NCBI GenBank assembly: GCA_003141315.1 | Contig: PLLP01000002.1 | Location: 124,001 to 188,000 of the forward strand | Direction of reading: 5' to 3' | DNA from: Phycisphaerales bacterium | GTDB lineage: Bacteria > Planctomycetota > Phycisphaerae > Sedimentisphaerales > Anaerobacaceae | Length of the DNA stretch: 64,000 nt | Part shown: one piece after another, positions 30,794-32,145 of the stretch | Position numbering within the stretch: the first letter of the stretch is position 1 | Layout: every line of letters begins with the position of its first letter | The notes under the pieces: generated by a model | What the model saw: the letters and a program-made list of their open reading frames with translations, nothing else | Databases searched by the model: none | What the model was told of the DNA's origin: nothing | Made by a program: the position numbers and the translations under genes

Positions 30794-31573
30794 TTAAATT
30801 AGCTTCAGGATTTTTTTCCTTTCTCTATCTGTTAGAATCTTAACCTCACAATTATATGAAGAGCAGTCGGCGCAGGCGCAAATGTTTTTTTTGTAATTTG
30901 CGTCACCGACGAGGATGAGCTGAACATTTTCCTTTTTGAGCATATGGTAGTGATAAGCGTCTCGGCGAGTTGCGGATGGAAGGGACTGAAATTTATTTAG
31001 TGTTTCACAATTAGGTAGAATTTTAATACTTACTTTCCTTTTTTCAGAGAATACCGAAGACGTAATATTATGAAGGCCCCAATATGGCAAGATTAGGCTT
31101 ATGTCGATAGTTAGTATCCCATTATCGGGAGTGAGCATTCGGTTATAGGTTTCAATTTTCCGTTTCATACTTTCTATTAACTTTACAGAGAACTTTTCGG
31201 GGTCTTTTATATTGCTATCAATCTCATCTATAACATCCGAGAAGAAAAATGTTTGTACTCGACTGTTTTTATTGCCTACCCAGCCTCCCATTTGGCCGTC
31301 AAGGAGTAATTTTAAGGCCATTCCTTTCAGTGACTCTCTTTGTACAGGTGAAAAGTCTTTGACTTTTTCAAGTCTGGTGATAGGATTTGAATAAAATGTA
31401 TCGGCTTTAAACTTAAAGATGTTTTTTAGCTCTGTAAGGGAGTCTTCGTGGGCTATTAGTGTATGGTGTATATAGTTATCCCAGAGTGCTTCATAACACT
31501 CCTGAGTAAGTGGGGTAACGGTTACTAATGGCATTATGCTGGAAGATTCAAGGCCTATAAGGTTCTTTTTCAT
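30794..31573 (-). CDS. Unidentified protein paired with a controller-like regulator; candidate restriction enzyme
   Basis: A 259-residue AT-rich gene whose ATG overlaps the stop of the XRE gene by four bases, so the two are coupled. I do not recognise the family. Visible features are GMALKLLLDGQMGGWVGNKN, TIDISLILPYWGLHNI, and a C-terminal cysteine cluster (ICACADCSSYNC). No clear PD-(D/E)xK or HNH signature can be named. The candidate role as restriction endonuclease rests only on its position after a C-protein-like regulator with C-box-like sites. No DNA methyltransferase gene is seen within the window around it. Confidence 0.55.
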   Translation of the reverse strand: MKKNLIGLESSSIMPLVTVTPLTQECYEALWDNYIHHTLIAHEDSLTELKNIFKFKADTFYSNPITRLEKVKDFSPVQRESLKGMALKLLLDGQMGGWVGNKNSRVQTFFFSDVIDEIDSNIKDPEKFSVKLIESMKRKIETYNRMLTPDNGILTIDISLILPYWGLHNITSSVFSEKRKVSIKILPNCETLNKFQSLPSATRRDAYHYHMLKKENVQLILVGDANYKKNICACADCSSYNCEVKILTDRERKKILKLI

Positions 31574-31779
31574 TTGATATTTAAGAGTTCTGAAAGTGTT
31601 ATCTGGAGAGCAGAGGCAATTTTATTTATGTTTACTAAAGAAATGTTTCTCGTTCCCCGTTCGACATCACCAATATATTGACGGCTTAGACCAGATAATT
31701 CTGCTAATTGCTCTTGGGTTATTCCTTTAGCAGAACGAAGCTCTTTTACGTGAAGTCCAAATTTTTGAAGAATAGTCAT
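31570..31779 (-). CDS. XRE-family regulator resembling restriction-modification controller (C) proteins
   Basis: A 69-residue helix-turn-helix protein: GLHVKELRSAKGITQEQLAE, LSGLSRQYIGDVERGTRNIS, LVNINKIASALQITLSELL. The RG.RN.SLVNI.KIA.AL pattern is the one common in C proteins of type II restriction systems. The ATG at 31777-31779 is preferred. It has no Shine-Dalgarno, but a reverse-strand TTATCT lies seven bases upstream, which fits the leaderless transcripts known for C genes. A GTG at 31803 would add eight residues. Tandem C-box-like repeats lie directly upstream. Confidence 0.75.
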   Translation of the reverse strand: MTILQKFGLHVKELRSAKGITQEQLAELSGLSRQYIGDVERGTRNISLVNINKIASALQITLSELLNIK

Positions 31780-31800
31780 GGTAGAAAGATAACGAGTGAC

Positions 31801-31830
31801 CACTATGCGTGTCTACCTACTATGAGTGTC
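31801..31830 (-). promoter_or_regulatory. Tandem C-box-like operator
   Basis: Two direct repeats, CACTATGCGTGTC (31801-31813) and TACTATGAGTGTC (31818-31830), lie 17 bases apart. On the reverse strand they read GACACGCATAGTG and GACACTCATAGTA. The latter includes the dyad ACT-CAT-AGT, the core shape of C-protein operators. They sit 22-51 bases before the regulator ATG, where an autoregulatory site would be. Confidence 0.55.
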
Positions 31831-31859: not shown

Positions 31860-32039
31860 ATGTTTTGTATACATACTTGTGAAGGTTCAGTTATTGAGTT
31901 CAATACAACAGAGGAATTGAAAGAGTATATTGAAATTAGACATGCCGAAGATGGAGGTTTTGATTGGATTTCTGAGATAAAGGACGAGGGGGAAAATTAT
32001 TATGGATGTAGTTGGAAGTTGGAAATTGAGCGGCTTTAG
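31860..32039 (+). CDS. Small AT-rich open frame, 59 residues, unidentified
   Basis: The ATG at 31860 is preceded by GAAGGG eight bases upstream. The product (MFCIHTCEGSVIEFNTTEEL...CSWKLEIERL) is acidic and has a plausible composition, but no family is recognised. It is divergent from the controller gene and lies in the same AT-rich block. It could be a small partner protein of the module or a remnant. Confidence 0.4.
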   Translation: MFCIHTCEGSVIEFNTTEELKEYIEIRHAEDGGFDWISEIKDEGENYYGCSWKLEIERL

Positions 32040-32145
32040 AAAGAGCGCAAAGACAAAGCCAAGGGGATGGTATCTAAAGCGGAAGAATTACAAATATGTT
32101 TTGAGTACGAATAATTCAGAAGAGGTGCTGTTAATAGGGAGGTAA
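32002..32145 (+). CDS. Second small overlapping open frame, 47 residues, basic
   Basis: Starts inside the previous small frame and reads MDVVGSWKLSGFRKSAKTKP then RGWYLKRKNYKYVLSTNNSEEV. It ends three bases before the PfkB-family start. Its GGGAGG also serves as the ribosome-binding site of that kinase. The strongly basic product could be real or chance; the evidence is weak. Confidence 0.28.
   Translation: MDVVGSWKLSGFRKSAKTKPRGWYLKRKNYKYVLSTNNSEEVLLIGR

Follow-up and report, generated by a model that had tools for sequence, protein, structure and literature searches.

A controller-protein module with a putative PIN-like nuclease bordered by fragments of EcoRV-type restriction-modification operons

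The controller (C) proteins of type II restriction-modification systems, for example C.AhdI, C.BclI and C.Esp1396I, are encoded in C-R operons that are preceded by two tandem boxes (OL/OR), of which the proximal one lies beside the -35 element of a promoter with leaderless geometry. In the case of C.Esp1396I, the distal site activates and the proximal site represses (PMC4041747). Two other groups of operons are relevant here, namely those of the EcoRV family, in which an enzyme of the Endonuc-EcoRV family (PF09233) is combined with a D12 methylase, and the small operons of the VapC/FitB PIN toxins with their own DNA-binding regulators VapB or FitA. In addition, solitary restriction endonucleases have been described as apparent restriction genes without a methylase gene, with methyltransferase pseudogenes nearby (Ershova et al. 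2012, PMC3488263).

The locus that we compare with these systems lies in a contig of a Phycisphaerales bacterium, in a stretch of 64,000 nucleotides that was analysed as a whole and is called the window in the following. A first-pass annotation of this stretch described a controller-regulated, restriction-like gene pair without a methyltransferase. Our preferred reading, held with modest confidence, is that a C-controlled PIN-like nuclease module has displaced EcoRV-type restriction genes here, and that the locus does not represent the C-R part of a system bereft of its methylase.

The controller gene, its operator and the conserved unit

The module comprises three genes, those for the C protein, for a 259-residue protein and for a small protein. 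The C gene (31570..31779 on the reverse strand, ATG at 31779, stop at 31570) encodes an XRE-type protein of 69 residues, whose best matches among solved structures are C.AhdI (E 1.3e-18), C.BclI (5.8e-18) and C.Esp1396I (2e-8), and for which the top PADLOC model is 'Control_protein' (2.3e-23). It is thus a true C protein of the C.AhdI/C.BclI family and a member of the short XRE controllers of type II systems. The gene for the 259-residue protein (30794..31573, reverse strand) starts within the C stop (AATGA), so that the coupling by ATGA, which had been noticed before, is confirmed. The first-pass annotation was right about controller-type regulation, about the operator and about the order C then R.

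It had overlooked a third gene, which is read divergently from the other two (31860..32039, forward strand), encodes 59 residues with the pattern MF...EYIE.RHAE.GGFDWISEI.D...YYGC.W.L.IE and is found, with 59-60 codons, in the alignment of all seven module loci. These loci are the window and six others that were found in a single scan of 84,980 species genomes for relatives of the 259-residue protein (63-78% identity), and all of them come from metagenome assemblies. The relatives belong to Phycisphaerae (L005), Syntrophaceae (L006), Smithella (L007), a Deltaproteobacterium (L008), Nitrospirae (L009) and another genus of Planctomycetota (L010). All six keep the divergent small gene, C, the operator and the 259-residue gene, with the exceptions of an internal deletion in the 259-residue gene of L010, which lost about 105 codons, and of a frameshifted C gene in L008. 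As this arrangement is kept across the relatives, the conserved unit reads small gene - operator - C - 259-residue gene. In L008 (4105-4329), the frameshift is due to one missing A in an A-run, upstream of an intact nuclease gene; it could reflect an error in sequencing or a C-null variant. No relatives of the 259-residue protein were found in viral contigs, plasmids or phages.

The operator upstream of C consists of two tandem boxes on the reverse strand. The distal box 1, ACACTCATAGT, with the dyad ACT-CAT-AGT (31819..31829), is conserved in all seven loci, whereas the proximal box 2, ACACGCATAGT (31802..31812), which lies beside the -35-like hexamer, is degenerate in L006 and L007. The first-pass annotation had made its reading depend on such conservation upstream of homologous regulators, and in this respect it held. 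Its tandem repeats of 13 bases are a tandem operator indeed, but their length is better given as 11-12 bp with a period of 17 bp, the spacing of the two boxes. No such boxes are expected in shuffles of the window, and in a search allowing up to three mismatches the operator occurs only once in the 2.35-Mb genome, which rules out a methyltransferase elsewhere under the same C protein. The promoter-like pair TAGACA (-35-like) and TATCTT (-10-like), separated by 18 nt (31786..31815, reverse strand), contains a TATC that is invariant in the seven loci. Since the -10-like hexamer ends 6 nt before the ATG of C, a leaderless start, of which signs had been noted earlier, is plausible.

For the small protein, the structure model (pLDDT 70) gave no informative structural match, weak hints at DUF1398 in three of the seven members were not significant, and a search for viral relatives found none. 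In each locus it is read outward from the operator of the C gene, on the opposite side, and it is a natural candidate for a restraint, such as an inhibitor or antitoxin.

The 259-residue protein

Searches with the 259-residue protein against Pfam, NCBIfam, PADLOC and PDB sequences gave no family match, be it to restriction enzymes or to other proteins, and it does not belong to a known family of restriction endonucleases. A structure model calculated from six sequences reached a pLDDT of 69 and a pTM of 0.69. Foldseek returned no significant match for it, and neither did the comparison with a viral structure library, but when structural candidates were re-aligned, seven of the eleven best were PIN proteins, among them PAE0151, Pfu-367848, VapC and FitB, with Z scores of 5.0-6.9 that lie below the aligner's caution level of 8. 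The label "restriction-like" is therefore unsupported. The predicted fold comes closest to that of PIN nucleases, with a weak best match of Z 6.9.

Four acidic residues, E9, E48, D205 and D224, are invariant in six sequences, and in the model they occupy the positions of a PIN active site: E9 follows strand 1, E48 lies within the helix that succeeds strand 2, D205 is placed at a late helix, and D224 comes behind the strand that follows. Peculiar to this family are a helical insert, which spans residues of about 55-150, and the four invariant cysteines C232, C234, C237 and C242, which form a Cys4 motif. A profile comparison with local PIN proteins, made with a shallow family alignment, gave no signal, and other PIN proteins were not found in the own genome. 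Taken together, the model makes it reasonably probable that the 259-residue protein is a PIN-like nuclease. Bacterial PIN proteins are mostly RNases, and for this reason RNA would be its likeliest target, which would also account for the absence of a retained DNA methylase.

Another planctomycete contains a deep relative (L004, 24-27% identity) with the acids E, E, D and N at the four positions. At this locus (L004:1483-2776), its gene overlaps an unassigned one of PD-(D/E)XK-like look, and neither a C protein nor a methylase is encoded close by.

Methylase fragments, junctions and movement of the module

The first-pass annotation saw no methyltransferase near the pair. This is correct in that there is no such gene in cis, but a remnant that adjoins the module was missed. 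It comprises the last 31 codons (329-359) of a D12 methyltransferase, here called M1, which lie 10 nt from the stop of the small gene (32050..32142, forward strand) and were detected in a flank-limited search (E 3.9e-10) and, independently of it, when the whole genome was searched (E 8.5e-6). The relatives likewise possess only truncated methyltransferases in cis. In L006, L008 and L009, pieces of M1 and of a second methyltransferase, M2 (N6_N4 class), lie beside the module and are all truncated where they meet it. In L005 and L010, the module instead adjoins the opening 95-97 codons of the gene for R', an EcoRV-type restriction enzyme (E 2.5e-7 and 1e-8 to EcoRV).

A search with M1 through 395 genomes from the same phylum as L006 yielded uninterrupted relatives. 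L155 contains an intact operon, with all genes in one direction, of a full N6_N4 methyltransferase M2, an EcoRV-type enzyme R' (Pfam Endonuc-EcoRV, 1e-109) and a full D12 methyltransferase M1, while L157, L158 and L159 contain R' and M1. None of these four loci codes for the C protein, the 259-residue protein or the small protein. M2-R'-M1 thus occurs in complete form where there is no module, and M1 and M2 are parts of an EcoRV-type system independent of it. L154 has an intact M1 beside a C-terminal fragment of Druantia DruA (L154:7471-7977), at the alaS site that in L008 is occupied by the module (alaS 94% identical at the DNA level), which suggests a hotspot of defence genes.

In the operon of L155 (2223-4775), the EcoRV-type enzyme is flanked by two different methylases, the DpnA-like M2 and the D12 methylase M1, which is akin to the C-terminal half of AlwI-family methyltransferases, whereas the EcoRV-type systems seen on plasmids show one methylase each. 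The plasmid relatives of M1 are C-terminal halves of AlwI-family methyltransferases; that M1 is the methylase of the plasmid EcoRV systems could be ruled out, as their methylase does not match M1.

These fragments bear on the view that the 259-residue protein is an unusual PIN-fold type II enzyme that once worked with M1 and M2, in a host that is now protected by another methylase or devoid of sites. C proteins are, after all, best known from type II systems, M1 and M2 pieces flank the module in the order M2-R-C-small-M1 in two phyla, and between L006 and L009 the identities of M1 (70%), M2 (73% over 152 residues) and the 259-residue protein (64%) speak for similar conservation. There is a precedent in the solitary restriction enzymes with nearby methyltransferase pseudogenes (74 genes, PMC3488263), and the genome is rich in methyltransferases, with nine N6_N4 and two D12 matches over the cut-off. 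The search for an orphan methyltransferase that the first-pass annotation had proposed thus found many enzymes, but none that is close to M1, which has no match in the own genome except for the 31-codon tail. The nearest to M2, at 38-40% identity, has a 180-residue ORF behind it that looks like a restriction gene of its own. As moreover the restriction partner of M1 and M2 is already present as R' in the module-free operon, as none of the seven loci has an intact methyltransferase and no second C operator exists, and as the M1 phylogeny splits the module-bearing copies (see below), we consider this view unlikely. The earlier alternative of a remnant that lost its methyltransferase or of a remotely protected system probably started from a wrong premise, as the scraps are those of an EcoRV-family operon M2-R'-M1 that was invaded at least twice. 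L009 was also considered as a complete cognate restriction-modification system, which was ruled out because both M1 and M2 are truncated there.

As to the own genome, a DpnA-like methylase overlaps a 180-residue gene, a probable PD-(D/E)XK restriction gene (L029:1321-2750), and both apparently form an intact compact restriction-modification system. In the window, several 6-bp palindromes are much rarer than expected (for example CTCGAG, 4 seen and 25 expected, and GTCGAC, 3 and 17), as might be the case in a genome with many restriction systems.

In all seven module loci, pieces of the EcoRV-type operon abut the module, at 0-40 nt from the stop of the 259-residue gene and at 1-26 nt from that of the small gene. 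When the junctions are read against L155 and L154, M2 breaks at codon 244 in L009 (0 nt from the module edge), 243 in L008 (0 nt), 175 in L006 (3 nt) and 217 in L007 (18 nt), M1 at codon 48 in L009 (17 nt), 146 in L006 (8 nt), 325 in L010 (1 nt) and 329 in the window (10 nt), and R' at codon 95 in L010 (19 nt) and 97 in L005 (40 nt). The EcoRV gene is either missing or broken off at a point between the PD and DxK motifs. Fixed ends of the module and varying break points fit a discrete module that replaces the R' region.

In the M1 tree, whose test rests on two module-bearing sequences, L009 groups with the uninterrupted L154 (99/97), apart from L006, and a single module-bearing clade of L006 and L009 is rejected (AU p=0.004), which requires two changes and hence at least two arrivals of the module. 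L006 and L007 share a tkt-cutA site, with a dS of about 1 to 2.2 or saturation in the flanking genes versus 0.30 in the 259-residue gene, and between L008 and L009 the dS is 0.06 in the 259-residue gene and 0.56 in M2. From the M1 tree and these contrasts it follows that the unit moved horizontally and repeatedly into or within such operons. The shared junctions of L008 and L009 and of the window and L010 may be single events each. What is left of M2 and M1 in L006 and L009 still reads as open frames, so that erosion from a few old insertions together with transfer keeps some residual plausibility. Genes for a transposase, integrase or recombinase are missing from the module, which also shows no evident terminal repeats and no target duplication that would explain its mobility; at the ends read in L009, a terminal repeat is likewise not evident, and the flanks share only one 9-bp match.

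Such a pattern could also be expected from a homing-type selfish nuclease that cuts DNA in EcoRV-type operons, the module then being copied into the break. All seven loci lie within such operons, two of them break R' in the conserved active-site stretch between PD and DxK, and the recent arrival at the same site in L006/L007 as well as the dS contrast of L008/L009 would agree with it. Precise homing, however, would not be expected to vary its break points among loci and to lose restriction-modification sequence, the protein matches no homing endonuclease family, and the predominance of RNases among bacterial PIN proteins does not favour a DNA target either, so that we regard homing as quite unlikely.

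A further link to EcoRV could lie in the C promoter, the -10 region of which contains GATATC, the EcoRV recognition sequence, in six of the seven mutually non-independent loci (L005-L010), while the window has GTTATC (31786-31793, reverse strand) and is the locus whose restriction-modification system is long gone. This is a speculative lead. If the module were specialised in parasitising or displacing EcoRV-type systems and sensed their methylation at GATATC, resident methylation of the promoter would report restriction-modification activity and gate the nuclease, which the C circuit would time, but we find this highly doubtful.

The least probable of the readings is that of a non-functional leftover, an old insertion that drifts to decay. 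The deletion in L010 and the frameshift in L008 could be taken in this sense, but the C and 259-residue frames and the operator are intact in the window, L005, L006, L007 and L009, and in the window the acids are intact as well. Moreover, the 259-residue gene has an omega of 0.18 between L006 and L007, which lack an intact methyltransferase in cis, and between the window and L010, in each of which only a tail of the cis M1 is left, dN is 0.13-0.18 at saturated synonymous sites. The 259-residue protein is therefore under purifying selection without a cis methylase, and to judge from the sequences its gene appears to be functional in this state.

Proposed course of events and comparison with known systems

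We think that a three-gene invader would replace R' in M2-R'-M1 and thereby break both flanking methylases, and that the window would represent an endpoint of this invasion with only the module and the 31-codon M1 tail left. Since the scraps belong to M2-R'-M1, the missing methylase is then the ruin of the invaded system and not a lost partner of the module. The removal of R' and of both methylases in one event would avoid the self-killing that is expected if methylation were lost first, as can be inferred from the known addiction to restriction-modification systems. From the operator geometry and by analogy to C.Esp1396I, the C protein may activate its own operon and the nuclease via the distal box and shut them off via the proximal box, that is, boost and then cap its own operon, and the delayed and capped output would make the nuclease a timed effector. 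The PIN-like nuclease would act on nucleic acid, most likely RNA, as a toxin or defence effector, possibly restrained by the 59-residue protein that is read outward from the same operator.

If this is correct, the module separates C proteins from restriction, as its controller circuit governs another nuclease, probably of the PIN type, and no methylase, and it offers a natural case of restriction-modification operons that are repeatedly taken over by another element. The before-and-after pairs L154/L008 and L155/L009 make the removal of addictive restriction-modification systems from genomes testable. It is also a warning that a "solitary restriction gene" beside broken methylases can be an invader and not an orphan.

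In the literature that was searched, no paper joined controller proteins and PIN domains, and each of the known systems is matched in part. With the C proteins of type II systems the module shares the family, the two tandem boxes, the position of the proximal box and the leaderless geometry, but its box spacing of 17 bp and its core ACACNCATAGT differ, its regulated gene is no recognised restriction enzyme, and it controls no methylase. The EcoRV family operons are its site, where it is flanked by pieces of R', M2 and M1, but it replaces R', and its three proteins are absent from the intact operons examined. The four acidic positions and the small operon with an own DNA-binding regulator, and tentatively the predicted fold, are as in the VapC/FitB toxins, from which the 259-residue protein differs in its length, helical insert and Cys4 motif, in being coupled to a C protein and not to VapB/FitA, and in the lack of detectable sequence similarity. 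Like the solitary restriction endonucleases (PMC3488263), the module presents an apparent R without M and methyltransferase pseudogenes nearby, but its scraps stem from a different, EcoRV-type system, so that this category describes the appearance of the module but not its cause.
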